NCBI RefSeq assembly: GCF_014197855.1
Contig: NZ_JACIGJ010000021.1
Coordinates: 1 to 50,442 of the forward strand
Length of the DNA stretch: 50,442 bases
Reading direction: 5' to 3'
DNA from: Roseospira marina
Lineage (GTDB): Bacteria > Pseudomonadota > Alphaproteobacteria > Rhodospirillales > Rhodospirillaceae
Position 1 is the first letter of the stretch, and each line of letters starts with the position of its first letter. Below, piece by piece: positions 31,930-48,189 of this stretch. The position numbers and the translations under genes are program-made. Under the pieces are notes generated by a model. It saw nothing but the letters and a program-made list of their open reading frames with translations. It had not been told where the DNA came from and made no database searches.

Positions 31930-31949
31930 TCGTGGCGCCTCCGGCCGGC

Positions 31950-32792
31950 TCAGCGGTCCGCTGCGATGCCGTCGAGACACCGGGCCAGCGTCCGTGCCGT
32001 GGCGCTCGGCGCCCCTTTTCGCCAGCGCCGCTCGACAACCGAATAGTGGATGTCCGGCAACGGAGGCAGGGCGCCGGCGGGCAGCGGAGGGCCGCCAAGC
32101 CCGATGTCGGTTCGGCCGGTGACCCCAAGGCCCGCCTGCACTGCCGCGCGCAGGCCGTCGAGGCTCGGCGTGCTCAACACCATCCGCCAGGGCCTGCCGA
32201 CGGCATCGAGGCCGTGCTGCGCGGCCGTCAGAAACGGACAGGGCGGGGTGATGCCAAGCAAGGGAACCACCTCGGCTTCGGCACGGGCGGGGTCACCGAA
32301 CCAGCGCACCGGCAGCACGCGCGTGGACACCGCATGGACCGCGTCACCCGCATGAACCGCGGTGTCGATCCGCTCTTCGCTCAAGGCCTGCAGCAGCTCC
32401 GCCGTGCTGCCGATGACAAGGCTGATCGCCTGCCCTGTCACGTCCACGCCGAGCGCCGCAAGGCTCGGCCGCAGCACGCTGTCCACGAGATCCTGCACGA
32501 TGCCGATCCGGATCGGCTCGCCCCGGGCCCGCCCCAGGTCCTCACGCGCGGCGTCGATTCGGCCCAGGATGGCCCGGGCATGCGGCAGCAACTGCGCGCC
32601 GGTCTGGTTGAGCTTCAGCGCGCGGCCATCGCGGTCGAAGAGGGGCGTGCCGACGATGTCTTCGAGACGCGCCATCTGGAGGCTCAACGCCGAGTCGCTG
32701 CGCCCCACCCGCACCGCCGCGGCCGACAGCGATCCACAATCGACAACGGCGGTGAAGCTGCGCAGCAGCGGCGAGGGTATATCCGGAATCAT
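31950..32792 (-). CDS. LysR-family transcriptional regulator, divergent from the tautomerase
   Basis: A 280-residue LysR-type regulator. The helix-turn-helix segment is LRSFTAVVDCGSLSAAAVRVGRSDSALSLQMARLEDIVGTPLFDRDGRALKLNQTG. The effector domain follows from about residue 90. It converges with the first LysR gene (20-base gap) and diverges from the tautomerase gene across 92 bases that contain a palindromic operator candidate. The effector is unknown. Confidence 0.9.
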   Translation of the reverse strand: MIPDIPSPLLRSFTAVVDCGSLSAAAVRVGRSDSALSLQMARLEDIVGTPLFDRDGRALKLNQTGAQLLPHARAILGRIDAAREDLGRARGEPIRIGIVQDLVDSVLRPSLAALGVDVTGQAISLVIGSTAELLQALSEERIDTAVHAGDAVHAVSTRVLPVRWFGDPARAEAEVVPLLGITPPCPFLTAAQHGLDAVGRPWRMVLSTPSLDGLRAAVQAGLGVTGRTDIGLGGPPLPAGALPPLPDIHYSVVERRWRKGAPSATARTLARCLDGIAADR

Positions 32793-32814
32793 GAGAAATC
32801 CTCAAATCAGAACG

Positions 32815-32838
32815 CCGGATTATAGGCCCAATATCCGG
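32815..32838. promoter_or_regulatory. Palindromic operator candidate for the LysR regulator
   Basis: CCGGAT (32815-32820) and ATCCGG (32833-32838) flank an A/T-rich 12-base core that itself contains a T-N11-A arrangement, as expected of a LysR site. A further ATATCCGG half-site lies at about 32779-32786 inside the regulator's first codons. It sits in the middle of the divergent gap. Confidence 0.5.
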
Positions 32839-32884
32839 ATACTCTCAGATAAAGATGAGGGACCACCAACAGAGGAGGTTCCCC

Positions 32885-33268
32885 ATGCCCTTCGCCCGAT
32901 TGACGCTGATCCCACAGCAACCGCCTGAAATCATTGAGCGGCTGACCACCGACCTCACCGACCTCATCGCTGCGGACCTCGGAAAACGCCATGAACTGAC
33001 CTCGGTCCTGATTGAAACGCCGTCGCGGGCCCGCTGGACCATCGGCGCAGGCCCGCAGCCAACCGCCGCCCATCTTGAGATTTGCGTGACCGCGGGAACG
33101 AACAGCGCGGATGAGAAGCGCCGCTTCATCAGGCATGCGATGGATCGGCTCCGGCAGGCCATCCCCGCGCTGCCGGAGGCCAGCTATGTTGTCGTGCGGG
33201 ACCTGCCCGGAGGCGACTGGGGCTATGACGGCCGAACCCAGGCGGACCGCGCTCGACACCGCCCGTGA
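32885..33268 (+). CDS. 4-oxalocrotonate tautomerase-family protein
   Basis: A 127-residue protein of the tautomerase superfamily. It begins Met-Pro, leaving the catalytic N-terminal proline after methionine removal, and continues FARLTLIPQQPPEIIERLTTDLTDLIAADLGKRHELTSVLIE, the beta-alpha-beta pattern of the family; the second half is a similar but more divergent unit, so it is a fused-dimer-length member. GAGGAGG nine bases before the ATG at 32885 fixes the start. The substrate is unknown; the divergent LysR gene probably regulates it. Confidence 0.8.
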   Translation: MPFARLTLIPQQPPEIIERLTTDLTDLIAADLGKRHELTSVLIETPSRARWTIGAGPQPTAAHLEICVTAGTNSADEKRRFIRHAMDRLRQAIPALPEASYVVVRDLPGGDWGYDGRTQADRARHRP

Positions 33269-33567
33269 CGCCCGGGAGGCTCGCGACTCGATGTGCACGG
33301 GCCCGGGCGGCCGGCGACGGTGGGGGGCTGCGACATCGCGATGCCAGAACGATCCGCCCGACGCACCCGCCATGCGCCGTTCTGGAAGGCTAATCGCTGA
33401 AAAACACGGCACGGATCAAAACCAGCGGTGGGTGCAAAGCTGTCATTCTGTCACGCTTGCGCGATCCTCCGACAGCGCCCATCATGGGCGCCCATTGAGA
33501 GGCGTATTGGCGCGGCAAAGTCGGATTCGTCGCGAGTGTCGACCATAGGCTTTGGAGGCCCGTTGCC
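33269..33567. other. Spacer between the tautomerase and the isoamylase operon
   Basis: No gene is supported. It holds an 8-bp inverted repeat, CCAGAACG (33344-33351) with CGTTCTGG (33378-33385), which may end the tautomerase transcript. The following stretch (about 33386-33540) is relatively A/T-rich and should contain the promoter of the isoamylase operon; I could not single out a clear -35/-10 pair. Confidence 0.5.
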
Positions 33568-35655
33568 ATGGGTGAGCAGGACCGTTCGGCCTTTCCAACG
33601 CGGCCAGGGCGCCCGCATCCCTTGGGCGCAACGGTGGAGCCGGACGGGGTCAACTTCGCGGCGTTTTCCCAATTCGCTACCGGGATCGAGCTGTTGCTGT
33701 TCGACCGGCATGACGCCGTCGAGCCGACGCGGGTCATCCCCCTGGATCCGGCGCGCAACAAGACGTTTCACTTCTGGCATGTCTTTGTCGAGGGGGCCGG
33801 GCCGGGCCTGCACTACGCCTATCGGGTCGATGGCCCCTGGGCGCCGGAGGACGGCCACCGGTTCCGCCGCGACAAGGTGCTGATCGATCCCTACGCGCGC
33901 GGCAATACGACCGCGTTGTGGAGCCGCGGCGACGCCTGTGGCGCGGGCGACAACCTGCCGTCGTCGATGCGGTCGGTGGTCATCGATCCGGACCGCTACG
34001 ACTGGGAGGGGGATCAGCCGCTCAACCGGCCCCTCAACGAGACCATCGTCTACGAAATGCATGTCGGCGGCTTCACGCGGTCGGAGACGTCCGGCACGGC
34101 GGAGCCCGGCACGTTTCGGGCGGTGATCGAGAAAATTCCGTACCTCAAAGAGTTGGGCGTGACCGCCGTCGAGCTGTTGCCCGTCTGTCAGTTCGACGAC
34201 AGCGAAGTGCGCGAGGTCGACGGCCGCCGGCTGACGAACTACTGGGGCTACAGCACGGTGAGCTACTTCTCGCCCCATCCCCGCTACTGCGTGACCCCGG
34301 AAGACGGCAGCCATCTCGACGAGTTCCGCGACATGGTCAAGGCGCTGCACGCGGCCGGTATCGAGGTCATGCTGGACGTCGTGTTCAACCACACGGACGA
34401 GGGCAATCATCTCGGCCCGACGTTCAATTTCCGTGGCTTCGACAACAGCACGTATTATTACCTGTCCCCGGGTGACCGGCAGTATTATTACGACTATACG
34501 GGCTGCGGCAACACGTTCAACTGCAACCATCCCATCGGGGATAAACTCATCCTCGACTGCCTCCGCTTCTGGCGCGAGGAGATGCACGTGGATGGCTTCC
34601 GGTTCGACGAGGGCTCGGTGCTGTCGCGCGGCCCCGACGGGGCACCGATGACCTACCCGCCCGTGCTGTGGAACATCGAGTTGGACGAGCCCCTCGCCGG
34701 CGCCAAGGTCGTCGCCGAGGCCTGGGACGCCGCCGGGCTGTACCAGATCGGCCACTTCCCGGGCTTCCGCTGGGGGGAGTGGAACGGCCGCTACCGCGAC
34801 GATCTGCGCCGCTTCGTCAAGGGCGACGCCGGCATGATCGGTGCAGTGGCCAACCGCATCGCCGGCAGTGCCGACCTGTACCAGTGGAGCGGCCACCTGC
34901 CCGTCAACAGCGTGAACTTCATCACCGCGCACGACGGCTTCACGCTCAACGATCTGGTCTCCTACGACGTCAAGCACAACGAGGCCAACGGCGAGGGCAA
35001 CCGGGACGGCGTGGACGACAACCTGTCCTGGAACTGCGGCGTCGAGGGGGCCACGGACGATCCGGCCGTCGAGGCGCTGCGCGCGCGCCAGATCCGCAAC
35101 TTCGCGACGCTGCTGATGCTGTCGCAGGGCATTCCCATGATCGTCATGGGCGACGAGGTGCGGCGCACCCAGGGCGGCAACAACAACGCCTATTGCCACG
35201 ACAATCCGATCAGTTGGTTCGACTGGTCGCTGGTGGAGACGAACGCCGATCTGTTCCGCTTCTGGAAGCACATGATCGCGTTCCGCCGTCGCCATACGGC
35301 CGTGCATCGGTCGCGCTTCTTCACCGGGGCCGTCAACGACCGGGGCTTGCCCGATATCTCCTGGCACGGCACCGACCTGGACCAGCCGGGCTGGGACGAT
35401 CCGGGGGCCCGCGTCCTGGGGTTCACGCTCGGCGGGTTCGACGGCGAGTCCGACCTTCACGTCATGGCGAACATGTACTGGGCGCCGCTCGCCATGGCGA
35501 TTCCGCCCGTTCAGGGGCGCCGCTGGTATCGCGCCGTGGACACCGCGCAGGCGCCGCCGGAGGACATCCGGCCGGCCGGGGACGAAATACGCGTGGCGGG
35601 AGATCGCTATACCGTCGGGGGACGCAGCGTCGTCGTCCTGGTGTCCAAGGATTAA
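33568..35655 (+). CDS. glgX: Isoamylase-type glycogen debranching enzyme (GlgX-like)
   Basis: A 695-residue GH13 enzyme that cleaves alpha-1,6 branch points of glycogen or limit dextrins. An N-terminal CBM48-like domain (GRPHPLGATVEPDGVNFAAFS, then HYAYRVDGPW) precedes the barrel. Barrel motifs are YEMHVGGFTR, DVVFNHT, DGFRFD with nucleophile Asp347, AEAWDAAG with acid Glu384, and TAHDGF with Asp456, so it should be active. GGAGG stands before the ATG. It lacks any glycogen synthase or branching gene nearby and instead heads a nine-gene set of unusual composition; the next gene starts 23 bases after it. Confidence 0.9.
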   Translation: MGEQDRSAFPTRPGRPHPLGATVEPDGVNFAAFSQFATGIELLLFDRHDAVEPTRVIPLDPARNKTFHFWHVFVEGAGPGLHYAYRVDGPWAPEDGHRFRRDKVLIDPYARGNTTALWSRGDACGAGDNLPSSMRSVVIDPDRYDWEGDQPLNRPLNETIVYEMHVGGFTRSETSGTAEPGTFRAVIEKIPYLKELGVTAVELLPVCQFDDSEVREVDGRRLTNYWGYSTVSYFSPHPRYCVTPEDGSHLDEFRDMVKALHAAGIEVMLDVVFNHTDEGNHLGPTFNFRGFDNSTYYYLSPGDRQYYYDYTGCGNTFNCNHPIGDKLILDCLRFWREEMHVDGFRFDEGSVLSRGPDGAPMTYPPVLWNIELDEPLAGAKVVAEAWDAAGLYQIGHFPGFRWGEWNGRYRDDLRRFVKGDAGMIGAVANRIAGSADLYQWSGHLPVNSVNFITAHDGFTLNDLVSYDVKHNEANGEGNRDGVDDNLSWNCGVEGATDDPAVEALRARQIRNFATLLMLSQGIPMIVMGDEVRRTQGGNNNAYCHDNPISWFDWSLVETNADLFRFWKHMIAFRRRHTAVHRSRFFTGAVNDRGLPDISWHGTDLDQPGWDDPGARVLGFTLGGFDGESDLHVMANMYWAPLAMAIPPVQGRRWYRAVDTAQAPPEDIRPAGDEIRVAGDRYTVGGRSVVVLVSKD

Positions 35656-35678
35656 CCGCCCGAATCGGAGAGATACGG

Positions 35679-37814
35679 ATGAACAGCGTCGATTTCACGT
35701 TTTCCGACCTCATCGCCGGATACGTGACTGCCTACGACAGCGACACCGACTCCTTCTCCCTCAAGACCAGCGATGATCGCGCCTACACGATCGGCTTGAC
35801 CGACAACACCTTCGCCGAGGTGATTCGCAACCTCGGCGAGGGCTTCAACAACGCCACGGATCAGATGCGCGGCATGCTGGTTCCGGGCCGGTTCGTGTTC
35901 GCCTACGGGGTGTTCTACCCGGACGGACCGAACGGCACGGTCTTGTTCGATGCCAAGCATCTGGTGTTCGCCGGCCGCACCGAGAACGCCTATGTGTTCG
36001 AGCAGCCGGCGTGGTGGATCCGGCAGATCGAGCAACTCGGGCGCTTCTACGTCGAGAGCGAGTTCGGCGACGGCGAGATCGACTATCGCGACTACCGTAC
36101 GCAACTGACCATCACCGGGCAGAAGCAGAAATCGGGGCGCCAGGAAACCGACACCATGTCGCGGCTGGTGTACGGCTTCGCCTCCGCCTTCCTGCTGACC
36201 GGCAACGACCGCTTTCTTGAGGCCGCCGAGAAGGGCGTGGAGTACCTGCGGGCTCACCTGCGCTTCGTCGATGCCGGCGAGGACATCGTCTACTGGTACC
36301 ATGCCGTCGATCTTCAGGACGACGGCACCGAACAGAAGGTCTTCGCCTCCGAGTTCGGGGACGATTACGACGCGCTGCCCTGCTACGAGCAGATCTACGC
36401 CCTGGCCGGGCCGGTCCAGACCTACCGCATCACCGGCGATCCGGACATCTACGACGACGCCCGCCGCACCATCAATCTGTTCAACCGGTTCTACAAGGAC
36501 CATGGACCGAACGGCGGCTACTACTCGCACATTGATCCCGTCACGCTGGATCCGCATGCGGAGTGCCTGGGCCACAATCGGGCGCGCAAGAACTGGAACT
36601 CGGTCGGCGACCACGCGCCAGCCTACCTGATCAATCTGTGGTTGGCCACCGGCGAGCAGCCCTTCGCCGACTTCCTGGAATACACCTTCGATACCATCTG
36701 CGAACGCTTCCCGGACTACGACAACAGCGCGTTCGTGCAGGAGAAGTTCCACGACGACTGGAGCAAGGATCAGACCTGGGGGTGGCAGCAGAACCGCGCC
36801 GTGGTCGGGCACAATCTCAAGATCGCCTGGAACCTGATGCGCATGCAGAGCCTGAAGCGCAAAGACACCTACGTGGCGTTGGCCGAGACCATTGCCCAGA
36901 CCATCCCGGACCACGGCTGCGACCGCCAGCGCGGCGGCTGGTACGATGTGGTCGAGCGGGTGCTGGACCCCGGCCAGCGCTTCCATCGCTTCGCCTGGCA
37001 CGACCGCAAGGCGTGGTGGCAGCAGGAACAGGGCATCCTGGCGTACCTGATCCTGCACGGCGTGTTGAAGACGGACGACTACCTGCGCTTCGCCCGCGAA
37101 GGCGCCGCGTTCTACAACGCCTTCTTCCTGGATGTTGAGTCGGGCGGTGTTTATTTCAACGTTTTAGCGAACGGCGAGCCCTATGCGCTCGGCACCGAGC
37201 GCGGCAAGGGTAGCCATTCCATGGCCGGCTATCATTCCTTCGAACTGGCCTATCTGGCATCGGTCTACACCAACCTGCTGATCCGCCAGGAGCCGATGGA
37301 CTTCTACTTCCGGCCCCGGCCGGGCGGCTTCAAGGACGGCATCCTGCGCGTGCAGCCCGACATCCTGCCCGAGGGCGCGGTGCGCATCACCGACGTCTGG
37401 ATCGACGGCCACGAGTATGACGATTTCGACGCCGAAGCGCTGACGGTGACGCTGCCCGAGGGCCACGGCGCCATCAAGGTGCGCGTGCGCCTGACGCCGA
37501 CGGCGGTGCGGTTCTCGGCCGATGTGCTGGACGTGTCCGGCACCACGGCCCGGATTGCGCTCAACGGCACCCTGACGCCGCATGACCTGAAGTACCTGGA
37601 CGAGGCGTTCCAGACCGCCACGGCGGAGGGCGCCCGGGCGCTCACGTTCGACGGTCGGGAGCTGTCCTCCATCTGCAGCGAGGGCCTGCGCTATCTGGTG
37701 TTCCGCAAGCAAAAGGCGGGGCCGGATTTCAAGATCCGGATCGAGAACGTCCAGCCGGCCGTGGCCGACGCCATTCGCGGCGCCGCGTTCGACCAAGAGA
37801 TCACTATCGCGTGA
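35679..37814 (+). CDS. AGE-like (alpha/alpha)6-barrel protein with N-terminal extra domain and C-terminal STAS domain
   Basis: A 711-residue protein with an apparently unusual architecture. Residues 1-110 form a beta-rich domain I do not recognise. Residues about 115-545 resemble N-acylglucosamine 2-epimerase/AGE-type helical barrels: MSRLVYGFASAFLLTGNDRFLEAAEKGVEYLR, NGGYYSHID, AWNLMRM, RGGWYDVVERVLDP and KAWWQQEQGILAYL. Residues about 613-711 look like a STAS domain: ARIALNGTLTPHDLKYLDEAF and LTFDGRELSSICSEGLRYLVF, where Ser667 would fall at the phospho-acceptor position. A sugar-acting enzyme carrying a partner-switching domain suggests regulation by phosphorylation. Internal start at 35679; the open frame to 34668 is a shadow of glgX. 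Confidence 0.72.
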   Translation: MNSVDFTFSDLIAGYVTAYDSDTDSFSLKTSDDRAYTIGLTDNTFAEVIRNLGEGFNNATDQMRGMLVPGRFVFAYGVFYPDGPNGTVLFDAKHLVFAGRTENAYVFEQPAWWIRQIEQLGRFYVESEFGDGEIDYRDYRTQLTITGQKQKSGRQETDTMSRLVYGFASAFLLTGNDRFLEAAEKGVEYLRAHLRFVDAGEDIVYWYHAVDLQDDGTEQKVFASEFGDDYDALPCYEQIYALAGPVQTYRITGDPDIYDDARRTINLFNRFYKDHGPNGGYYSHIDPVTLDPHAECLGHNRARKNWNSVGDHAPAYLINLWLATGEQPFADFLEYTFDTICERFPDYDNSAFVQEKFHDDWSKDQTWGWQQNRAVVGHNLKIAWNLMRMQSLKRKDTYVALAETIAQTIPDHGCDRQRGGWYDVVERVLDPGQRFHRFAWHDRKAWWQQEQGILAYLILHGVLKTDDYLRFAREGAAFYNAFFLDVESGGVYFNVLANGEPYALGTERGKGSHSMAGYHSFELAYLASVYTNLLIRQEPMDFYFRPRPGGFKDGILRVQPDILPEGAVRITDVWIDGHEYDDFDAEALTVTLPEGHGAIKVRVRLTPTAVRFSADVLDVSGTTARIALNGTLTPHDLKYLDEAFQTATAEGARALTFDGRELSSICSEGLRYLVFRKQKAGPDFKIRIENVQPAVADAIRGAAFDQEITIA

Positions 37815-37873
37815 CGGGGAACGACTCGGGTTCCGGCGTCGTGCCGGAGCCAGTCGGTGAGAGGACACGCCCT

Positions 37874-38269
37874 ATGACCATGAAGCCGAGAGAGGCCGTC
37901 AGGGCCACCGCGGCTCTTCCCAGAAAGGTGCATCTGGGCGTCGCCCGGCGTTTGGCGCCGATCGTCCGCCATCCGCTGGCCAGCGTGATCGCGGGGTTGG
38001 GCTTGTTGCTCAGTGGCGTGGTCGAACTGCTGGAGCATGTGCTGTCGTTCGATACGCCGATCGATGCGTACCAGGGCGTGATCCTGCTCGGGGTCGTCAC
38101 GACGCTGCAAAGCCTCGCTCATATGGTCGAGGGCGCCGAGTGGTTGACCAAGGACCTCGAAGCGGCCGCCGCGCACGTCGAGGCCGCCGCCGCGCATGGC
38201 GTGGGGGCCCACCACCCCCCGTCCGAGACAACACAGTCCGCCCCGACGAACCGCGCGGCGGCCCGCTGA
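37874..38269 (+). CDS. Small membrane protein of unknown function
   Basis: A 131-residue protein with two hydrophobic segments, PLASVIAGLGLLLSGVVELLEHVL and AYQGVILLGVVTTLQSLAHMV, joined by a short loop. The acidic residues at the end of the first segment (VELLEH) and in the second helix border (HMVEGAEW) are noteworthy. A helical, Ala-rich part (LEAAAAHVEAAAAHG) and a polar tail follow. I chose the ATG at 37874 with GAGAGGAC before it; a GTG at 37811 overlapping the previous stop is the alternative. It may anchor or signal for the neighbouring STAS protein, but this is a guess. Confidence 0.6.
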   Translation: MTMKPREAVRATAALPRKVHLGVARRLAPIVRHPLASVIAGLGLLLSGVVELLEHVLSFDTPIDAYQGVILLGVVTTLQSLAHMVEGAEWLTKDLEAAAAHVEAAAAHGVGAHHPPSETTQSAPTNRAAAR

Positions 38270-38463
38270 GAGAGTGTGTCCAAGCCCCGTGGCCGTGTCC
38301 TTGGCCGCTTCCGTGGTCGTTTCAGAGGTCCCCCACCCAGCGGTCGTCCCGACCTTCGCCGAGACCGGTTTCGCCGTGACTCCGGCCGCACGGCGCCACC
38401 CGCATCATTCGGCGCGACCGGCCCGCCCGGGCCGCGCGCCGCCGCCAGCCAGGAGCCCGACTC

Positions 38464-39288
38464 ATGTCCAAGAAGATCCTGACCCTCCTATCCGATTACG
38501 GCTATTGGGGCGTCGAACTGACCGGCCCGATGGTCAAGCTGGAGGCGGCGGGCTACGACTTGGTCTTCGCCACGCCCAAGGGCCAGCGGCCGGTGGCCCT
38601 GCCGCCCAGCTACGACACGACGTATGTCGATCCGCCCTTGGGCATGTGCGTGACCACGCCGGAAGACGCCGAGCAGGTCAATTCCATCAAGGACAGCCCG
38701 AAACTCGACAATCCCCGCGCACTCAACGACTGGATCCCGGAACGGCCGTACTTCAGCGCCGAGAATTTCCTGCGCAAACTCGAGGCGTATTACGCCCGCC
38801 TGAAGGAGATCGACGGTGAGCTGGCGGAATACGCCGGCATCCTGCTGGTCGGCGGCAGCGGGCCGATCGTCGACATGGTGAACAATCAGCGGGTGCACGA
38901 CCTGATCCTGGCGTTCCATCGCGCCGACAAGCCGATCGCCGCTATCTGCTACGGGGTCGCCTGCTTGCCCATGGCGCGCGACTTCAACGAGCGCACGAGC
39001 ATCATTCGCGGCAAGCACGTCACCGGCCATTGCATCGAATACGACTACCACGACGGCACGGGTTTCATCGGCACCGACTTCAACATGGGGCCGCCGCCGT
39101 ACTGCCTGGAATACATGCTGACCGACGCGGTCGGGCCGGAGGGCCAGTACCACGGCAACTTCGGTAAGCACACGTCGGTGATCGTCGACTACCCCTTCAT
39201 CACGGCCCGCTCGCTTCAGTGCTCGCACGAGTTCGGCGACCAATTCGTCAAGGTTCTGGACAAGGGGCTGCGTCGCTATGGCTGGTAA
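38464..39288 (+). CDS. DJ-1/PfpI-family protein, large (Hsp31-like) form
   Basis: A 274-residue member of the DJ-1/PfpI superfamily. The nucleophile elbow AICYGVACLP places Cys162, and Glu18 in YWGVELTGP matches the conserved acid that tunes the cysteine. YAGILLVGGSGPIVDM corresponds to the oxyanion strand. The family includes glyoxalases/deglycases, chaperones and hydratases; ICYG in place of the more usual ICHG is a small variation. AGGAG lies before the ATG. Its end overlaps the start of the ThDP enzyme by 11 bases, so the two are probably coupled. Confidence 0.85.
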   Translation: MSKKILTLLSDYGYWGVELTGPMVKLEAAGYDLVFATPKGQRPVALPPSYDTTYVDPPLGMCVTTPEDAEQVNSIKDSPKLDNPRALNDWIPERPYFSAENFLRKLEAYYARLKEIDGELAEYAGILLVGGSGPIVDMVNNQRVHDLILAFHRADKPIAAICYGVACLPMARDFNERTSIIRGKHVTGHCIEYDYHDGTGFIGTDFNMGPPPYCLEYMLTDAVGPEGQYHGNFGKHTSVIVDYPFITARSLQCSHEFGDQFVKVLDKGLRRYGW

Positions 39289-41005
39289 CGTCACGCATCG
39301 TCCCACCAACACCGGGTGCCACGCGATCTTCCGCCAGTTCCTGGCCGATGGGCTGACGACCATCTTCGGCAACCCGGGGACGGTGGAGCAGGGTTTCCTC
39401 GACGCCCTCGCCGACTTCCCGGAGATGACGTACATCCTGACCCTTCAGGAAAGCGTCGCCCTGCTGTGCGCCGACGGCTACGCCCGCGCGACCCAGAAAC
39501 CGACCGTGGTGCAGCTTCACAGCTCGCCCGGGATCGGCAACGGCGTCGGGGCGCTCTATCAGGCCAAGCGTGGTCACGCCCCGCTGGTGGTGATCGGGGG
39601 TGACGCCGGCATCGGCTACATGAACATGGATGCCCAGATGGCCGCCGATCTGGTGGCCATGATGGAGCCGGTGACCAAGTACGCGACGATGGTGCTGGAC
39701 CCCCGCAGCCTGCTGCGGACCCTGCGCCGGGCCATCAAGATCGCCGCGACGCCGCCGATGGGACCGGTTTACATCTGCCTGCCGGCCGATGTGATGGACG
39801 CGGTGAACACCGAGACGGTGGTGCCCACCTCCCTTCCGTCCACCCGCGTCCGCCCCGGCGACGACGACATCGAGGCGGCGGCGGCCATGCTGGCCGGCGC
39901 GCAACGGCCGAAGATCGTCATCGGCGACGGCGTGGCGTGGTCCGGTGCCACCTCGGCGTTGGAGCGTCTGGCGCTCCAGATCGGGGCCGAGGTCTGGATC
40001 GCCGGCGGCGGGGACCTCAACATCGCCACCACGCACCCCTGCCTGATGGGCAGCACCGGCCACATGTTCGGCAGTCAGAGCCTGCCGATCTTCCAGTCGG
40101 CCGACGCGGTGCTGGTGCTCGGCTGTTACCTGCTGCCGGAGGTTTTCCCGCATTTGGGCGATCTGTTCGACCCGGCCGCCAAGGTGATCCACTTCGACCT
40201 CAACGCCTACGAAATCGCCAAGAACCATCGGGTCGATCTGGGCGTGGTCTGCAATCCGCGCTGCGCGCTGGAGGCGCTGGAGCCGGTCCTGGCCCGGACC
40301 ATGGACGAGGGCGCCCGCACCCGCGCGGCGGACCGGGTCGCGGCCTTCACGGCCCGCAAGGTGGAGGAGACGGCGGCGGCGGCCAAGACCGACGCCGCCC
40401 GCGCGGCCCAGCCGCACGCCACCATGGAGGCCTTCGCCGCCGAATTGGCCAAGCGGATGCCGTCGGACACCCTGGTGTTCGATGAGTCCCTGACCAGCTC
40501 CATGCCCTTCAACCGGGCGATCCCGCGCACCGAACCGGGCAGCTATTTCTTCACCCGGGGCGGCTCCCTCGGGGTCGGCTTCCCCGGAGCGGTCGGTGTG
40601 CAGATGGCGCACCCGGACAAGCTGGTCGTCGGCCTGAGCGGCGACGGCGGCACCATGTACACCCTTCAGGTCCTGTACACCGCGAAGAAGTACAACAGCC
40701 GCACCCTGTTCGTGGTCTGCAACAACACCCGCTACAAGCTGCTGGACCTCAACATCGAGCACTATTGGCAGGAGCACGGTTACACCGAACACGCCTTGCC
40801 GCCGTCCTTCGACCTGTCCGATCCACCGTTGGGCTTCGTCGAGATGGCGAAGGGTATGGGGGTGCCGGGGATCCGCATCACCCAGTCGGCGGAGATTCCG
40901 GCGGCGCTCGATCAGGCCCTGGCGACGGATGGGCCGTTCCTGATCGATCTGGTGCTGACCGAGCACACCGAGGACCACACCCCCGGCTGCACGTGCGGCC
41001 AGTAG
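39278..41005 (+). CDS. ThDP-dependent decarboxylase/carboligase (benzoylformate decarboxylase or acetolactate synthase-like)
   Basis: A 575-residue three-domain thiamine-diphosphate enzyme. The activating Glu58 sits in LTLQESVALLCADGYARA of the PYR domain. The central domain (about 190-340) has IGDGVAWSG and ALVLGCYL-like segments. The PP domain carries GDG at 455-457 and the Asn pair at 482-483 (VVCNN), the ThDP/Mg motif. GNPGTVEQGFLDAL at the start resembles benzoylformate decarboxylase. The substrate is not readable; a 2-keto acid or acyl-CoA is expected. It ends in CTCGQ, a possible metal or redox site. Confidence 0.87.
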   Translation: MAGNVTHRPTNTGCHAIFRQFLADGLTTIFGNPGTVEQGFLDALADFPEMTYILTLQESVALLCADGYARATQKPTVVQLHSSPGIGNGVGALYQAKRGHAPLVVIGGDAGIGYMNMDAQMAADLVAMMEPVTKYATMVLDPRSLLRTLRRAIKIAATPPMGPVYICLPADVMDAVNTETVVPTSLPSTRVRPGDDDIEAAAAMLAGAQRPKIVIGDGVAWSGATSALERLALQIGAEVWIAGGGDLNIATTHPCLMGSTGHMFGSQSLPIFQSADAVLVLGCYLLPEVFPHLGDLFDPAAKVIHFDLNAYEIAKNHRVDLGVVCNPRCALEALEPVLARTMDEGARTRAADRVAAFTARKVEETAAAAKTDAARAAQPHATMEAFAAELAKRMPSDTLVFDESLTSSMPFNRAIPRTEPGSYFFTRGGSLGVGFPGAVGVQMAHPDKLVVGLSGDGGTMYTLQVLYTAKKYNSRTLFVVCNNTRYKLLDLNIEHYWQEHGYTEHALPPSFDLSDPPLGFVEMAKGMGVPGIRITQSAEIPAALDQALATDGPFLIDLVLTEHTEDHTPGCTCGQ

Positions 41006-41066
41006 CCCGGGCCCCCGGCGCCGCCCGCGCGGCGTCTCCCGCCCGTTTCGACCCAGAGGATGCCCC

Positions 41067-41765
41067 ATGCTGCGTTCGTTGATCTACGCCGCCCCCAAAC
41101 CGGGGATGACCGTGCAGGACTTCCAGGACTACTGGGTGCATAAGCACGCGGTCCAATTCGCGAGCAAGCTGCCCGGAGTCCGCCTGTATTCGGTGGATAC
41201 CTTTCTCGATTGGGGCAGCGATCCCACCCCCTCATTGTTTGCGGGCTGCGCCGAGATTTGGATGGACGACGCCGACGCCCTGATGACGGCCTTCCAGTCG
41301 CCCGAGTACCTGAAGGGTGCGCGCGCCGACGAACCGAACTGGGCCGCGTTCTGGATGACCGTCAGCCTCGTGACGGAGACGCACACCATCCTGGCCGGCC
41401 CCCCGGACAACCGGGACAGCACGGCCCTCAAGATGATGGTGCTGGTGAAACGCAAGGAGGGGCTGGACGTCGCGGCGTTTCAGACGGCGATGCGCGCGGT
41501 CCAGGGGCCGAAGCTGGCGGCCCTTCCGGGCGTGCGCCGCTGCGAGGTCTGTCTGGTGCCCGATCCCTTCTACGCGACGGCGGAAACACCCTACGACGGT
41601 GCCGCCGTGCTGTGGTTCGACGATCAGGCCGCCGTGGAGGCGGCGCTGGCCTCCGACGTCTGGACCCAGCAGGTCGAGCCGGGCTGGGCCGACTGCGTCA
41701 ACCCGAAGTACCGCCACCGCATGGTGATGCAGGAGCACTGGATCGTTGGCCCAGACCTCGCGTGA
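41067..41765 (+). CDS. Protein with two EthD-like (dimeric alpha/beta-barrel) domains
   Basis: A 232-residue protein made of two similar halves. The first shows MLRSLIYAAPKPGMTVQDFQDYWVHKHA with the EthD-type W-x-x-KHA motif and ADALMTAFQSPEYLKG; the second begins KMMVLVKRKEGLDVAAFQTAMR and ends with WTQQVEPGWADCVNP. EthD-like proteins are small oxygenase- or isomerase-related folds of uncertain chemistry; the second half has lost the His-rich motif. It follows the ThDP enzyme by 61 bases. Confidence 0.75.
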   Translation: MLRSLIYAAPKPGMTVQDFQDYWVHKHAVQFASKLPGVRLYSVDTFLDWGSDPTPSLFAGCAEIWMDDADALMTAFQSPEYLKGARADEPNWAAFWMTVSLVTETHTILAGPPDNRDSTALKMMVLVKRKEGLDVAAFQTAMRAVQGPKLAALPGVRRCEVCLVPDPFYATAETPYDGAAVLWFDDQAAVEAALASDVWTQQVEPGWADCVNPKYRHRMVMQEHWIVGPDLA

Positions 41766-41806
41766 CGAGCCCGCCCGACACGCACGACGCTGAAAGGGGC
41801 GCCCCC

Positions 41807-42388
41807 ATGAGCACAGAGCCGTTACAGGGCAAGAAGATTGCCGTCCTGATGGAGTCTGACTACTACGAGAACGAAATCCACTACTACGAGCATCGTTTTC
41901 CCGAGGAGGGGCTTGATCTCCACTTCCTTACCCGCTTGTGGGGGCAGCCGCAGATCACGTTCACCGGCCACGAAATGAAGACGCCGATGACCGTGTCGGA
42001 AAGCTTCGAGGATCTGGATGACGCGGCCCTCGCGGGCTTCGCGGCGGTGATCGTGCCGTCCGGCATGGTGGCCGACCGGCTGCGCTATACCGAGGATGTC
42101 GCGAAGATCCCGCCGGCGACCGAGTTCCTGGCCCGGGCCTTTGCCGCGCCGTCGGTGCTGGTCGGGATCATCTGTCACGGCCTGTGGCTGACGGCGCCGC
42201 GCACCGATCTGGTCAAGGGCCGCCCCCTGACGTGCCACAACAATCTGATCGGCGACGCCAAGGCCTACGGCGCCGCCTACCAGGACGCCGATCTGGTGAT
42301 CGACGGCGATCTCATTACCGCCCGCACCGGTGGCCACTGCCACCTGCTGGCCAAGGCGATCATCGAAACCCTGAAGGATCGCGCCTGA
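41807..42388 (+). CDS. DJ-1/PfpI-family protein, short form
   Basis: A 193-residue PfpI/YhbO-like protein. Cys123 lies in the nucleophile elbow VGIICHGLWLTA, Glu21 or Glu23 in MESDYYENEI is the partner acid, and AAVIVPSGMVAD is the preceding strand; TCHNNLIGDAKAYGA and LITARTGGHCHLLAKAI complete the fold. Members are deglycases or proteases of uncertain substrate. It is the second DJ-1 homologue of the cluster and not closely similar to the first. The internal ATG at 41807 is the start; the upstream open frame shadows the EthD gene. Confidence 0.87.
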   Translation: MSTEPLQGKKIAVLMESDYYENEIHYYEHRFPEEGLDLHFLTRLWGQPQITFTGHEMKTPMTVSESFEDLDDAALAGFAAVIVPSGMVADRLRYTEDVAKIPPATEFLARAFAAPSVLVGIICHGLWLTAPRTDLVKGRPLTCHNNLIGDAKAYGAAYQDADLVIDGDLITARTGGHCHLLAKAIIETLKDRA

Positions 42389-42472
42389 CATCAGGGTCGC
42401 CGTTGGTTGGCCCTGGCTGCCGCTCCCTGGTTCATCACGCCCGTCCGGGCCCTTGTGCAAGGACCGAACGCC

Positions 42473-42883
42473 ATGACCGACCAAGAGAACATCAAGGCCA
42501 TCCAGACCCACATTGCGTCGTTCGGTCAGGGCGACATCGACGCCGTCTGCCTGCAGTGCACCGAGGACGTGGTCTGGACGCCGCCGATCTCCGACGGGCG
42601 GATCCCCTACAACAAGCCGTGGAGCGGCCGCGACGGTGTGCGCGAATACTGCACGCTGTTGATGGGCAACCTGGAATGGCAATCCTTCGAGGTGCCGGTG
42701 ATCGTCGCCGACCAGAACGACCATGTGGTGATCCTGGGCCGCGAGGTCTTCACCATCCGCAAGACGGGCAAGACGGTCGACAACACCTTTCTCACCCTGT
42801 TCACCATGCGCGACGGCCTGATCGCCGGGTTCACCCTGTGCGAGAACACCGAACTGGTCGCCGCGGCCTTCGCCGGGTCCTGA
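42473..42883 (+). CDS. SnoaL-like (NTF2-fold) protein
   Basis: A 136-residue protein of the NTF2 fold. It opens with IKAIQTHIASFGQGDIDAVCLQCTEDVVWTPPI, has WSGRDGVREYCTLLMGN and GREVFTIRKTGKTVDNTFLTLFTMRDGLIAGFTLCENTELVAAAF, as expected of SnoaL-like cyclases, isomerases or binding proteins. AAGGA precedes the ATG at 42473; a TTG further left is an unlikely alternative. Its position between a DJ-1 protein and the ankyrin gene suggests membership of the same operon. Confidence 0.82.
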   Translation: MTDQENIKAIQTHIASFGQGDIDAVCLQCTEDVVWTPPISDGRIPYNKPWSGRDGVREYCTLLMGNLEWQSFEVPVIVADQNDHVVILGREVFTIRKTGKTVDNTFLTLFTMRDGLIAGFTLCENTELVAAAFAGS

Positions 42884-42934
42884 CGGCGTCCACGCCCGTG
42901 CGTGCCCCTTTCGCGCCGTCCCAGGAGACCGCCC

Positions 42935-44128
42935 ATGGCCCCGATCGATATCGCCATCACCCGCGCCAAGGCCGGCGACACGGCGGGGCTGGAGGACTGG
43001 ATCGCCGGCGGTGGCAATCCCAATGCTCACGACGCCGATGGTTGGACGCCGCTGCTTTGGGCCTCGGCCCGTGGTCACGCCGCGACCGTCGCCGCGCTGC
43101 TGGCCCGGGGCGCCGAGAGCACCCTGGCCCACGGCCGATCCGCCGCCCTGCCGATCCACATGGCCGGGCATTCGGGCGACGTGGCGACCGCCACAGCCTT
43201 GCTGGATCACGCGCCGGACCAGATCGACGCGGTCTGGGACTTGAACGGCCACACGATTCTGCTGCAAGCGGTGTTTTACGGGCATCTCGACCTCGCCCGG
43301 ACGCTGGTGGAGCGTGGTGCGGATACCGCCATCACCACCGCGCGCGGTCTGGGGCCGATGGAGTTCGCCCACCAGTTCCAGAACCAGCCGATGACGGACG
43401 TCCTGCGGCCCTACGACAGCCCGGCGGAGAAAAAGGCCGCGTATTACGCCCGCTACCTCGAGCGCATCGCGCCGATCATTCCCGAGGCCGAGAAGCCGGC
43501 CCAGGCGCTTGCGGACCGGCTGTGTCGCGCCATCGAGGACGGTATCCATGCCACCGCGACCGACCCGACCCGCGTGGACGCCACCCTCGCGGCCGTGCGG
43601 GCGCTGGTCGAGGACGAGGGCGCCGACGTCAACCGGCTCGGCGGGCCGCTACACCAGCCGCCGCTGATCGTCGCCGTGACGGGCAACAACGGCTTGCCGG
43701 CCAACCCGACCGTCAAGCGCCTGCGCGACGAGACCGCGCGCTATCTGCTGGAGCGGGGCGCGGATCCGGCGCGTCACGAGGATCACCCGATGGGCGCGCA
43801 AACCATCATCCGCGCCGCCGTCTTCAACCACCTCGATATCCTGCGGATGTGCGGGGCGCACATGACGCCCGTGGCGCTGGCCGACGCCATCAACGAGGTC
43901 CCGATCGTCAACGGCCTGACGGCCATGCACGACACATGCTTGCGGGCGGGCATGGTGGCGGCCGAGCAGGCCGGCGGCTACATCGAGCAGGCGCGCTGGT
44001 TCACCGAAAACGGCGGGCGGCACGATATGGAGGACTTCTCCGGCCAGACCCAGCAGAGCGTCGCCGAAAGCTGCCCCGATCCAGAGCGGCGGCGGCGTTT
44101 GCTCGCCGCCCTGGGCGTGTCGTCCTGA
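42935..44128 (+). CDS. Ankyrin-repeat protein
   Basis: A 397-residue protein with at least four ankyrin-type units: AGDTAGLEDWIAGGGNPNAHDADGWTPLLWASARGHAATVAALLARGAE, the following HMAGHSGDVATATALLDH, GHTILLQAVFYGHLDLARTLVERGAD, and a later pair after residue 230 (VRALVEDEGADVNRLGGP, ETARYLLERGADPARHED). No signal peptide. It is likely a protein-protein scaffold for the cluster. GGAG lies before the ATG at 42935. It is the last gene of the plus-strand set and its stop lies inside a hairpin. Confidence 0.85.
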   Translation: MAPIDIAITRAKAGDTAGLEDWIAGGGNPNAHDADGWTPLLWASARGHAATVAALLARGAESTLAHGRSAALPIHMAGHSGDVATATALLDHAPDQIDAVWDLNGHTILLQAVFYGHLDLARTLVERGADTAITTARGLGPMEFAHQFQNQPMTDVLRPYDSPAEKKAAYYARYLERIAPIIPEAEKPAQALADRLCRAIEDGIHATATDPTRVDATLAAVRALVEDEGADVNRLGGPLHQPPLIVAVTGNNGLPANPTVKRLRDETARYLLERGADPARHEDHPMGAQTIIRAAVFNHLDILRMCGAHMTPVALADAINEVPIVNGLTAMHDTCLRAGMVAAEQAGGYIEQARWFTENGGRHDMEDFSGQTQQSVAESCPDPERRRRLLAALGVSS

Positions 44129-44144
44129 GGCAGATCGTGCCTCA
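44126..44144. terminator. Hairpin at the end of the ankyrin gene
   Basis: A perfect 7-bp stem, TGAGGCA at 44126-44132 and TGCCTCA at 44138-44144, loop GATCG. It includes the ankyrin stop codon and lies 49 bases before the end of the convergent TIM-cupin gene. No T-tract follows. Confidence 0.5.
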
Positions 44145-44192
44145 CGGAAACCAGGCCCGGCGGGCATGCGGCGTTCCGGCCGACCCCGTGAA

Positions 44193-45248
44193 TCAGAGGT
44201 GCTCCAGGTCCGTCACCGTTCGGGCGTCCGTGGCGGAGCCGGTGTTCACGGTGGTGGCCGGCTCCAACAGCACGACCTCGCAGGTCTCGTCCAGGGCCAC
44301 CGGGCAATGTTCAACCCCGCGCGGCACGACGATGAACGCGCCCGGTTCGACGATCTCGTCGCGGTCCCGGAACTTCATCAGCAGCCGGCCCTTATGCACC
44401 AGAAACAGCTCGTCCTCTGTGGAGTGGAAATGCCAAGTGAACGCCCCTTCGAACTTGGCGAGCTTGATCTGCATGCCGTTGATCTGACCCGCGACCTTGG
44501 GTGACCAGGTGTCGGAAAAGCGCCCGAACGCGGCCGCCAGATTGGTCGTGTGAAACGGCGAGATGTGGTTGTTGAGAGTGGCGACGTCGCGCAGGATCGC
44601 GGCGAGCTGGCTCGCCATATCCGTCGCGTCGGCGGGATAGCGGCCATCAAGGGCGGCCGTGCCGATCGTGAACCCCGCGGCGCCAGCCGCCTTCAGCGCC
44701 GCGATGCGCTCCGGCGTATCGATCGATCCGGCGACATAGACGGGCTTGGTCACCGCCGCGCAGACCGCCTGGATCAAGGCGGGAACGTCCTCGTGCGACC
44801 GGTAGGCCAACAGGTCCAGGCCATGAACGGTCTCGCGGGCCGTCAGGGCCTTGGCGCTGGCGACGATCTCCTCAAGGGTGCCTTCCAGCACACTCGGATG
44901 ACCGGCGATGCGGCCCGGGAACGGGCAATACTGGATGGCTGTCCCGGCGAGAATCGGTGTCACCGCTTCCACCCGCGTTCCGCCCAGCAGCACATCGACG
45001 CCGATCTCGACGGCGGCCGTCGCCGAGGCGATCTCGCTGTCGCGGTCGAGCGAGACCACTTCGAGATAAGAGGTCGCCCCGCCGTCCTTGATCGTCCGGT
45101 TGAGCGCGGTCACCTGGTCGAGGGACAGGCCGATGTCCTTAAAGCCGATATGACGGACGCCAAGGCTCAGCGCGGTGTGAAGCAGCGGCCACGGGTCGTC
45201 GACCGTGCGGTCGTTGCGCGTCAGCATGAAAATGAACCGAAGCCCCAT
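44193..45248 (-). CDS. TIM-barrel/cupin fusion of unknown function
   Basis: A 351-residue two-domain protein. Residues 1-222 look like a ThiE/HisA-type phosphate-binding barrel: VRHIGFKDIG, EIGVDVLLGGTRVEA, KPVYVAGSIDTPERIAALKAAGAAGFTIGTAAL, with the last segment as the standard phosphate-binding strands. Residues about 240-351 are a cupin with the full metal motif: His273, His275, Glu280 (WHFHSTEDE) and His314 (GVEHCP). The barrel could act on a phosphosugar or a related ligand; the cupin could be an isomerase or a sensor. It faces the isoamylase-ankyrin set and may belong to the same pathway. Confidence 0.72.
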   Translation of the reverse strand: MGLRFIFMLTRNDRTVDDPWPLLHTALSLGVRHIGFKDIGLSLDQVTALNRTIKDGGATSYLEVVSLDRDSEIASATAAVEIGVDVLLGGTRVEAVTPILAGTAIQYCPFPGRIAGHPSVLEGTLEEIVASAKALTARETVHGLDLLAYRSHEDVPALIQAVCAAVTKPVYVAGSIDTPERIAALKAAGAAGFTIGTAALDGRYPADATDMASQLAAILRDVATLNNHISPFHTTNLAAAFGRFSDTWSPKVAGQINGMQIKLAKFEGAFTWHFHSTEDELFLVHKGRLLMKFRDRDEIVEPGAFIVVPRGVEHCPVALDETCEVVLLEPATTVNTGSATDARTVTDLEHL

Positions 45249-45430
45249 GCCAGCCCCCTTTTAAAGCTGTGTCTCGGTGGCGTCCGGCACCGCGCCCCTG
45301 TCTGGGCCGGCGCGCCTGACTGGCTGTGTCTCTCCCGGCCTGTCTTGCCCGTATCCACCGCGCCGGCTCCGGGTTCAGGGCCTTGCCAAACGTCAACGCC
45401 CTTGCATATCCCTAAGAAACATGATGTGAG

Positions 45431-45445
45431 TGCGAGTCACTCGCA
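45431..45445. promoter_or_regulatory. Fur-like 7-1-7 palindrome upstream of exbB
   Basis: TGCGAGTCACTCGCA is a perfect 7-1-7 inverted repeat 41 bases before the exbB start. The geometry is that of Fur-family operators. It suggests iron (or related metal) repression of exbB-exbD-exbD-tonB. Which family member binds cannot be read from sequence. Confidence 0.6.
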
Positions 45446-45486
45446 AGGCCGACGGGCCGACCGCGCCACCGAACGGAACCGCCGCG

Positions 45487-46422
45487 ATGAACGAACAGGA
45501 TGCCTCCGTAACCCGCCCGACCGCAAACCCCCTTGAGGGTGCCGTACCGGCTGTGCCTTTGGACGGCGATGCCGCCGGTGCGGGGCCAACCGGTCCGGTT
45601 CCATCCGGCGACGCTGTGGGGCCGATGGATGCCGCCGGCGCCCCGGCGCTGCCCGCCGACTCGGGTCCGGGGGCGGATATGACGCTCCTGGGATGGCCGT
45701 TGCCCGACCCGGTTGCCCAGGCCGTGGACATGGTGGTCGGCGGCGGTCCGGTGGTCCTGATCCTGGTGAGCCTGTCCGTCGTGGCGGTCGCCATCGTGCT
45801 CTTGAAGCTCTGGCAGTTCCGGGCCGCCCGGCTGGGGCAGACCCGAGTCGCGCGCGATGCCCTGCGCCTCTACACGACCGGACGTGCGAGCGAAGCGATC
45901 GCGTTGGCCGGGCGCTGTCGCAATCCGGTCGCGCAGGCCCTGGCCCGCGCCATTCGGGGCCAAAGCCGGGGCCTGCCCGAGGCGCGGGTCCGCGAGGAAG
46001 TGCTGCGCACCGGCGCGGAGGCCCTGCACACCCTGCGCAGTTGGTTCCGCGCCCTGGAGGTCATCGGCTCCCTCGCCCCGCTGCTGGGGCTGTTCGGTAC
46101 GGTGCTCGGCATGATCGAGGCGTTCCGCCAGCTCGAAGCCGCCGGCAATCAGGTCAATCCCGCCGTCCTGTCGGGCGGCATCTGGGAGGCGCTTTTGACC
46201 ACCGCCGTGGGTCTGGCTGTGGCCATTCCCGTGGTGGCGCTTTTGAACTGGATGGAACGCCGCGTCGATCAGGTCGCGCATGACATGGACACCATCGTCA
46301 CGCGCGTGTTCACCGACGACCTGTCGCACGACGCCTTCGACGGCCCCCACGGCGACACCATCGCCCCGCACCAGGAGCCAAGCCATGACGGGTCCCGCCG
46401 TCTCGCGGCCCTCGGGGCTTGA
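45487..46422 (+). CDS. exbB: ExbB/TolQ-family proton channel subunit
   Basis: A 311-residue inner-membrane protein. After a long Ala/Pro/Gly-rich N-terminal region (about 80 residues) come three membrane segments: GGGPVVLILVSLSVVAVAIVLLKLW, then IGSLAPLLGLFGTVLGMIEAF and LLTTAVGLAVAIPVVALLNWM. The GLFGTVLGMI and TTAVGLAVAIP blocks are diagnostic of ExbB/TolQ/MotA. With ExbD it uses the proton gradient to energise TonB. The adjacent tonB gene makes ExbB more likely than TolQ. The ATG at 45487 lies just downstream of the Fur-like site. Confidence 0.92.
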   Translation: MNEQDASVTRPTANPLEGAVPAVPLDGDAAGAGPTGPVPSGDAVGPMDAAGAPALPADSGPGADMTLLGWPLPDPVAQAVDMVVGGGPVVLILVSLSVVAVAIVLLKLWQFRAARLGQTRVARDALRLYTTGRASEAIALAGRCRNPVAQALARAIRGQSRGLPEARVREEVLRTGAEALHTLRSWFRALEVIGSLAPLLGLFGTVLGMIEAFRQLEAAGNQVNPAVLSGGIWEALLTTAVGLAVAIPVVALLNWMERRVDQVAHDMDTIVTRVFTDDLSHDAFDGPHGDTIAPHQEPSHDGSRRLAALGA

Positions 46423-46843
46423 GGCGCTGCGCCCGGCGGCCCGCCGCCGGCCGCTGGTCAGCCTGACGCCGCTGATCGACGTGGTGTTCATCCTGCTGGT
46501 GTTCTTCATGCTGGCGACCAGTTTCATGGACTGGCGGGTGATCGGCCTGGATACGCCGCACCACACCGCGCCAACGACCGCGAGCCCGACGAAGTCGACA
46601 ACGTTGCGGATCGACGTGGGCGCGCGGGAGCTGCGCCTGGACGGTCAGCCGGCCACCCTGGAGCAGATCGCCCGCACGGTGGCGGCGCGCCTGGAGACAA
46701 CGCCCGACCAGCGTGTTCTGGTCCGCCCGGCGCCCGGCGTGCCCCTGCAACGGGCGGTGACGGTACTGGATCACTTGGCGGCCCTCGGCGTGTCGGCCAT
46801 GGCCTTGTCGCGCCCCGGCGGCGCCGCCGCGTCCGGGGAGTGA
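46385..46843 (+). CDS. exbD: ExbD-family protein, first copy
   Basis: A 152-residue inner-membrane protein with a short cytoplasmic start, one membrane helix [24 protein letters not shown] carrying the essential Asp of ExbD (LIDVVF), and a periplasmic domain. It overlaps the exbB end by 38 bases in another frame. With ExbB it forms the proton-driven motor of the TonB system. Confidence 0.9.
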
Positions 46844-46848
46844 CGGCC

Positions 46849-48161: not shown

Positions 48162-48162
48162 C

Positions 48163-48177: not shown

Positions 48178-48189
48178 ACCCCCTCCGCG

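Follow-up and report, generated by a model that had tools for sequence, protein, structure and literature searches.

Why a glycogen debranching enzyme, a protein of a sugar-epimerase family, two DJ-1 proteins and a thiamine diphosphate (ThDP)-dependent enzyme should stand together on one strand is the question raised by a nine-gene run in Roseospira marina. We address it here for contig NZ_JACIGJ010000021.1 (assembly GCF_014197855.1), the whole stretch of which, 50,442 nucleotides read on the forward strand, was analysed and is referred to below as the window. An earlier note on this DNA had placed nine genes at 33568-44128, all on one strand, and had read them as a joined set; all nine open reading frames (ORFs) are confirmed there, on the + strand. 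We report that this line-up is not chance and that it is built from two modules: module A, GlgX and AGE with or without a STAS domain, can stand alone, and module B, a DJ-1 protein and the ThDP enzyme, is rarely found without AGE. The cassette so formed is modular and horizontally spread. Its features, in window coordinates, are the following.

33568..35655, + strand: GlgX-type glycogen debranching enzyme, module A (passes the TIGR02100 cut-off; has CBM48 and alpha-amylase domains)
35679..37814, + strand: AGE-family enzyme fused to a C-terminal STAS domain, module A (PF07221)
37506..37811, + strand: STAS domain, about residues 610-711, with the candidate phospho-serine Ser667 (profile-profile match to free STAS)
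37811..38269, + strand: small protein, hydrophobic by eye, GTG start (sub-cut-off Pfam match to DUF6987 only)
38270..38463, no strand: 194-base gap between the modules, the seam (gap measurement; differing nearest relatives in trees)
38464..39288, + strand: ThiJ_like DJ-1 protein, module B (PF17124, PF01965; fold like Hsp31/glyoxalase III proteins)
39278..41005, + strand: ThDP-dependent enzyme related to benzoylformate decarboxylase, module B (three TPP domains)
41067..41765, + strand: tandem EthD-domain protein, accessory (PF07110, two stretches)
41807..42388, + strand: PfpI/YhbO-type DJ-1 protein (PF01965)
42473..42883, + strand: SnoaL/NTF2-like protein, accessory (PF12680, SnoaL_2)
42902..44128, + strand: ankyrin-repeat protein, accessory (Ank families)

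The linkage was established from the ThDP enzyme outwards. A scan with one genome per species yielded 56 loci, 50 of them close (55-80% identity over the best segment) and six holding remote paralogues (26-29%), and partners were counted in these loci at a bit score of at least 50, with identity limits of 45% for ThiJ, 35% for AGE and 30% for GMC; the window's own GlgX and EthD genes, which had missed the automatic families through ORF overlap, were checked separately. A ThiJ-type DJ-1 gene adjoins the ThDP gene in all 50 close loci, and PfpI is present in 44, AGE in 39 and GlgX in 31, along with the accessory families SnoaL/NTF2-like (40 loci), VOC (35), GMC (29), EthD (6) and ankyrin (6). 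Many of the 50 loci are interrupted by contig ends. Among the 32 with full flanks (8 kb or more to each side) ThiJ and PfpI are found in every one, as is either EthD or SnoaL/NTF2, and AGE in 31. None of the six remote-paralogue loci, which are only 4.6-12.2 kb long, holds any of the partners.

Whole-genome searches of the 50 ThDP-positive genomes, the remote paralogues being left out, recovered AGE in 46. The family is scarce around the window itself: in a sample of its phylum AGE occurs in 4 of 299 genomes at E 1e-40, the window's own included, and ThDP in one alone, again its own, at E 1e-110, and among relatives the figures are 6 of 98 for AGE at E 1e-20, own genome included, and 2 of 98 for ThDP at E 1e-60, namely the window's own gene and one 32% paralogue. 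Since ThDP is too sparse in both of these samples, co-occurrence was tested from the ThDP-positive genomes, as above, and within a single Bacteroidota family, that of Spirosoma endophyticum (whose genome holds locus L009), sampled at 200 genomes. There, 40 genomes carry AGE and 36 carry ThDP, all 36 lying among the 40, with neither gene in 160; the ThDP scan had previously picked up 22 of the 36, and the other 14 were new. The two genes share a contig in 34 of the 36, at a spacing of 2,965-9,902 bases (median 4,108). The Fisher P of 1e-35 for this family ignores shared ancestry and is not to be taken at face value; the association is informative because presence is patchy within the family. 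Plasmids show the same pattern, with an AGE relative on each of the 14 records, among the 20 of 47 listed, that carry a 48-57% identical ThDP gene. Taken together these counts bear out the joined gene set of the earlier note, which had also asked whether AGE and ThDP genes co-occur in many genomes: they do, in 46 of 50 against a phylum background for AGE of 4 in 299. Taken alone, the linkage is highly probable.

The two modules differ in how far they depend on one another. On a first count an ORF of the GlgX family accompanied AGE in 42 loci, and in 39 of them the two lay within 1 kb on one strand. Four of the 42 were set aside: in three the place of GlgX is taken by an amylase, which in one case lies within 1 kb of AGE, and in the fourth by a TreS-like gene. 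In all of the remaining 38, the window not counted, AGE and GlgX lie no more than 1 kb apart on the same strand; AGE comes first in most loci and GlgX in nine, and this constancy in either order backs the link to glycogen that the earlier note had drawn. In module B, an exact 11-base overlap of the ThiJ and ThDP genes recurs in 41 of 57 loci (window included, several near-identical Runella copies counted), which points to translational coupling, and we conclude that the two genes are probably coupled in this way. Module B without module A is confined to four cases on fragmentary contigs.

In the window the successive intergenic gaps of the nine genes are 23, -4, 194, -11, 61, 41, 84 and 18 bases. 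The 194-base gap before the first DJ-1 gene had been correctly singled out earlier, and the single overlap claimed becomes two on measurement: one of 4 bases, where the small protein starts on the AGE stop, and one of 11 bases, where the ThDP gene starts on the DJ-1 stop. The 194-base gap is the seam between modules A and B. On its one side, the nearest relative of the window's AGE in our trees is the Gemmobacter plasmid copy (75% identity, support 97); on the other, that of its ThDP enzyme is locus L003 (77% identity, support 100). These support values are from the Shimodaira-Hasegawa-like approximate likelihood ratio test (SH-aLRT) of a quick search, and the trees leave out the near-duplicate loci L018, L020 and L023 and rows shorter than 450 residues, with 90 residues cut off fused AGE tails. 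Modules that re-associate in different orders suggest selection for togetherness.

The spread of the cassette is wide. By record title the scan reached Acidobacteria, gamma- and betaproteobacteria, Bacteroidota, Chloroflexota (Anaerolineae), Planctomycetota, Omnitrophota, Desulfobacterota, Desantisbacteria and Nitrospirae, the records other than Bacteroidota being metagenome-assembled genomes for which individual taxon assignments may be wrong; plasmid records add Cyanobacteria, Actinomycetota, Deinococcota and an alphaproteobacterium, for a total of about twelve phyla by title. Plasmid-borne copies occur in Gemmobacter, Nostoc, Runella, Streptomyces and Deinococcus. Five sampled congeners of the window's genome returned no ThDP gene, so that its presence in R. 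marina looks like a recent or patchy acquisition. One congener (G004) has a 507-residue PfpI-ThiJ fusion (L079:6423-7943, +) beside a second-type AGE and an amylase, with no ThDP found in the mapped stretch, nor in the genome at E 1e-60.

We turn to what the enzymes may do. GlgX passes a named-function test, that of the TIGR02100 equivalog, at 729.6 bits (cut-off 640.9). It is the fourth and lowest-scoring GlgX of its genome (729 bits), the three others, on contigs C7 and C2, scoring 1034, 988 and 819 bits. The cassette is like glycogen (glg) operons in this enzyme, and some relatives add GlgA, GlgB or GlgE; it is unlike them in that the nine genes include no synthase, branching enzyme or phosphorylase, and none of GlgA, GlgB, GlgC and GlgP, and in that its GlgX is paired with AGE, in a genome holding three other copies.

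The AGE protein matches PF07221 at 68.3 bits (threshold 23.4) and is laid out as an N-terminal beta domain, a central AGE barrel and a STAS tail, in a predicted structure with a mean predicted local distance difference test score (pLDDT) of 81 and a predicted template modelling score (pTM) of 0.80. Its best fold matches by Foldseek are AGE-superfamily epimerases and isomerases, at 12-19% identity to the structures listed. When the family profile is aligned to the glucose 2-epimerase Runsl_4512 (8h1k), H312 and H378 fall on that enzyme's histidines and both are invariant; three residues after H378 stands K381, invariant in 25 of 25 sequences, at a position occupied by Glu in 8h1k and in the Pedobacter AGE 8bry. 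We take these three to be the catalytic positions of AGE relatives. The protein thus resembles the AGE sugar 2-epimerases and isomerases (8h1k, cellobiose 2-epimerase, mannose isomerase) in its barrel fold and aligned histidines, and is unlike them in its extra N-terminal domain, its STAS partner or fusion and its lysine, and this invariant replacement of Glu by Lys suggests an AGE enzyme with altered chemistry.

For the ThDP enzyme the best match in the PDB is 6a50 and the nearest relative is benzoylformate decarboxylase, with which it shares three TPP domains. T35, E58, H81, H253, the GDG of residues 455-457 and N483 are invariant in 25 sequences; E58, H81 and H253 are the equivalents of the Glu and His residues that we assume to be catalytic in benzoylformate decarboxylase, and T35 replaces its serine. 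Unlike that enzyme, it misses the NCBIfam equivalog (295.3 bits vs 493), and its constant companion is the ThiJ-type DJ-1 protein. In that DJ-1 protein (38464-39288) E18 and C162, the latter at the position of the nucleophilic cysteine of the Hsp31 type, each vary in at most one of 59 sequences, and fold searches place REP24 and an uncharacterised protein best, followed by many Hsp31/glyoxalase III proteins; the model averages a pLDDT of 76 and drops under 50 at residues 183-214 and 226-239. It scores 31.6 bits against the 365 of the Hsp31/glyoxalase III equivalog and so falls short of it. In the second DJ-1 protein (41807-42388) no more than one of 57 sequences departs from the consensus at each of E16, C123 and H124, and the best PDB match is PfpI (8r3n). 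Both are like the Hsp31/glyoxalase III proteins and PfpI/YhbO deglycases in fold and in the conserved Cys and Glu, and unlike them in lying below every NCBIfam cut-off and in being tied to a ThDP enzyme. Of the earlier suggestion that the DJ-1 proteins handle carbonyl products, the general idea is still plausible, judging from the kept Glu and Cys and from the Hsp31/glyoxalase III proteins among the modelled fold matches of the first.

The STAS domain calls for separate treatment. It is not reported in the window's AGE protein by a Pfam search; a profile built from ten fused tails nevertheless matches nine free-standing STAS proteins with 99.5% probability (E 2.4e-22), and the predicted structure has an alpha/beta stretch at the C-terminus. 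Among 56 AGE rows, 41 are without a STAS tail and 11 have one, four truncated rows having been set aside. The phospho-serine is present in all 27 free STAS proteins adjacent to AGE and in 24 of 25 copies of the second STAS, at a column which we take to be the site phosphorylated in RsbV/SpoIIAA. Of the 41 tail-less loci, several of which break off at contig ends and a few of which lack a called STAS, 23 carry an RsbW-like kinase. In Runella this kinase is followed by an nSTAND1-WD40 signalling protein (L061:19013-22204, +), of a family that is also present in 14 of the other loci. The SpoIIE phosphatase is present in the Streptomyces, Deinococcus and G018 clusters.

The 11 fused-type clusters are different: none has an RsbW-like kinase or a second STAS, and the serine is kept in two only, the window (Ser667) and Gloeothece. 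In L004 and on the Nostoc and Gloeothece plasmids, three of the 11, there is a HATPase gene of a different, histidine-kinase type, and some other kind of signalling may operate there. Domain searches found no SpoIIE/PP2C phosphatase among the nine genes of the window's cluster, and the genome's top HATPase_c_2 match, a strong one, lies on a different contig, C9. The fused AGE proteins form one group of 12, which includes a STAS-less Gloeocapsopsis copy, at a weak support of 57 and with midpoint rooting. The simplest reading of these sequences is that fusion was accompanied by decay of the phosphorylation switch, and this makes STAS control in this genome doubtful, although Ser667 is kept; the earlier claim of such control has therefore lost ground. 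The cassettes as a whole are like the RsbV/RsbW and SpoIIAA/SpoIIAB systems in that many related clusters have a phospho-serine STAS, a HATPase_c_2 kinase and a SpoIIE phosphatase. They are unlike them in that no kinase or phosphatase adjoins the window's fused STAS and in that the presumed target would be an enzyme, not a sigma factor.

The small accessory proteins across clusters are mostly SnoaL/NTF2-like, EthD and VOC. A 141-residue family found in 41 loci, examined in case its fold was new, resembles SnoaL/NTF2 proteins instead, 13 of 21 members matching SnoaL_2 at E up to 0.1, and the Runella cluster holds seven SnoaL-like genes. EthD relatives occur on plasmids as well as in the six loci given above, and five of the six loci with ankyrin matches also have EthD; ankyrin matches this rare lend no support to the ankyrin control that had been proposed. 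Neighbours acting on sugars accompany the Streptomyces, Nostoc and Runella copies (GlgE, GlgB, TreS, MalQ, a glucosidase and glycogen synthase), and sugar dehydrogenases are also found among such neighbours elsewhere. Oxidoreductases (GMC, SDR and molybdo-flavoenzymes) join clusters other than that of the window. Near the GMC oxidoreductases of the Gemmobacter and Nostoc plasmid copies there are genes of leader-peptide type, hinting at a link between some copies and peptide natural products, and inside the Dyadobacter and Spirosoma clusters, whose maps show no GMC, there are genes for a metallo-beta-lactamase fold and for molybdopterin and FAD subunits of the CO-dehydrogenase/xanthine-dehydrogenase type:

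L059:8176-8827, - strand: Nif11/NHLP-type leader-peptide genes
L064:17555-18215, + strand: Nif11/NHLP-type leader-peptide genes
L060:13063-13779, - strand: Nif11/NHLP-type leader-peptide genes
L021:12282-16460, + strand: metallo-beta-lactamase/molybdopterin/FAD genes
L049:15474-16328, + strand: metallo-beta-lactamase/molybdopterin/FAD genes

Anti-phage defence was considered on account of the STAND, CHAT and NB-ARC neighbours of some clusters and rejected, PADLOC returning only GlgB-like and ankyrin-type matches.

The reading that we favour, and think somewhat probable, is that of a mobile modular cassette whose enzymes draw on glycogen to make a sugar-derived product or protectant. GlgX would debranch glycogen and supply malto-oligosaccharides or glucose, as a private tap, and the AGE barrel would turn the released sugar into an isomer or a keto form, by isomerisation or epimerisation, or carry out an altered reaction by way of its lysine. 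The Hsp31-like DJ-1 protein and the ThDP enzyme could then act on a reactive keto or aldehyde intermediate, cleaving or joining C-C bonds, and the PfpI, SnoaL/NTF2, EthD and VOC proteins, with oxidoreductases elsewhere, might finish or police a product that may differ between clusters. In the fuller cassettes AGE would be tied to partner switching through STAS, the RsbW-like kinase and SpoIIE or STAND proteins, with STAS perhaps controlling AGE directly, and in the window the switch would be reduced to the fused STAS domain. Each chemical step in this scheme, taken singly, we rate well below half. A bolder form, in which glycogen is turned into a new class of sugar-derived metabolite, the Lys-for-Glu AGE enzyme performs the committed step under direct STAS switching, with no sigma factor in between, and the DJ-1/ThDP pair builds the carbon skeleton, is possible and can be put forward only tentatively.

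Several observations weigh against the favoured reading. The accessory genes are highly variable, which is compatible with a general stress island, and with three further GlgX proteins encoded in the genome the window's own could be a mere extra debranching enzyme. The ThDP enzyme, AGE and both DJ-1 proteins fall below NCBIfam cut-offs, so that no named activity can be transferred to them, and the fused clusters lack the kinase, the second STAS and, for the most part, the phospho-serine. ThDP occurs without AGE in four of the 50 genomes (those of L007, L016, L020 and L046), all reached via contigs of 3.6-9.0 kb. Module A, for its part, is found without module B in four of the 40 AGE-positive family genomes; two genomes, G018 and G035, have AGE, STAS, GlgX, a second STAS and a kinase without module B, G018 with SpoIIE in addition, and G154, G198 and G273 are AGE-positive and ThDP-negative if the two phylum samples are identical, as their handles suggest. 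Because module A is found alone, a single obligate pathway is not established.

The main rival to the favoured reading is the handling of carbonyl stress with no dedicated product: glycogen would be mobilised under stress, and the DJ-1, ThDP, VOC and SnoaL-like proteins would detoxify dicarbonyls and repair glycation. Two DJ-1 proteins with Glu and Cys kept, the first Hsp31/glyoxalase III-like in fold and the second nearest PfpI/YhbO, the VOC genes in 35 of 50 loci and the partner-switching genes of many clusters would all suit it. A detoxification kit, however, has no obvious need for a coupled ThDP enzyme, for GMC, SDR and molybdo-oxidoreductases or for the seven SnoaL-like genes of Runella, and both DJ-1 proteins miss the deglycase and glyoxalase cut-offs; on balance we consider it unlikely. 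Less likely again, and in our view quite improbable, is that two functionally independent operons have merely travelled together on the same islands and plasmids. The idea was first suggested by three cyanobacterial plasmids (Gloeothece, Gloeocapsopsis and Nostoc NIES-3756) that have AGE and GlgX and no close ThDP gene on the plasmid, the plasmids only having been searched, and it draws on the existence of module A alone and on the differing nearest relatives of the window's modules with the 194-base gap between them. It is countered by the rarity of ThDP without AGE: the dependence is one-sided and near-complete (46 of 50 and 36 of 36), and it persists through several gene orders and about twelve phyla by title, where hitch-hiking should have eroded such linkage. 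The earlier note had regarded separate occurrence of the two groups as the mark of two unrelated operons, and such separation is found for the GlgX-AGE module and not for the DJ-1/ThDP module; its alternatives of one pathway or two unrelated operons are both too simple, A standing alone and B almost never.

A further proposal, that AGE is no sugar enzyme at all, serving instead as a scaffold that senses glycogen or oligosaccharides and whose state is signalled by STAS, would make the cluster mainly a stress sensor. STAS adjoins or is fused to AGE, STAND-WD40, SpoIIE and RsbW-like genes adjoin in many loci, and a lysine takes the place of the catalytic-helix Glu, all of which fit. What does not fit is that the histidines aligned with those of a glucose 2-epimerase, and much of the barrel with them, are strictly conserved, and that the fused form keeps the barrel without the RsbW-like kinase and second STAS; we find this proposal very unlikely.

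The remaining features of the locus are less distinctive. Third-codon-position G+C is 0.84-0.92 across all nine genes, as expected for coding sequence, and the G+C of the cluster falls inside the range of the window. The promoter scan gave three promoter-like sites, every one on the - strand, the terminator scan three terminator-like sites, fewer than the shuffle mean of 6.0, and the flanks 30501-33600 and 44101-50442 have no 18-base direct repeat in common. For the small protein at 37811-38269 the earlier label of membrane protein reflects hydrophobic stretches judged by eye, and no homologue was found in the other mapped loci, the window's own sequence being the only one. Upstream, a LysR regulator (31950-32792, -) is divergent from a small tautomerase-family gene (32855-33268, +) that stops 299 bases before glgX; the regulator might control the cluster. 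Downstream are a convergent gene (44193-45248, -) for a protein with a HisA-like barrel, a weak match below cut-off, and a C-terminal cupin, and an ordinary series of ExbB, two ExbD and TonB genes (45430-48161, +).

Searches of the open-access literature, covered by titles and the starts of abstracts, with subscription papers and preprints outside that scope, returned no description of this gene set, and the system looks new as a whole, every assigned part coming from a known fold family. Recurrence across phyla by record title, strong linkage and conserved active sites make it a promising candidate for a part of metabolism not yet charted. It also allows the idea of a metabolic enzyme under partner switching to be tested, the free-STAS and fused-STAS forms providing a natural experiment in the keeping or losing of a switch. 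Furthermore, the presumed source of substrate, glycogen, together with the small size of the gene set, offers a handle for finding the product.

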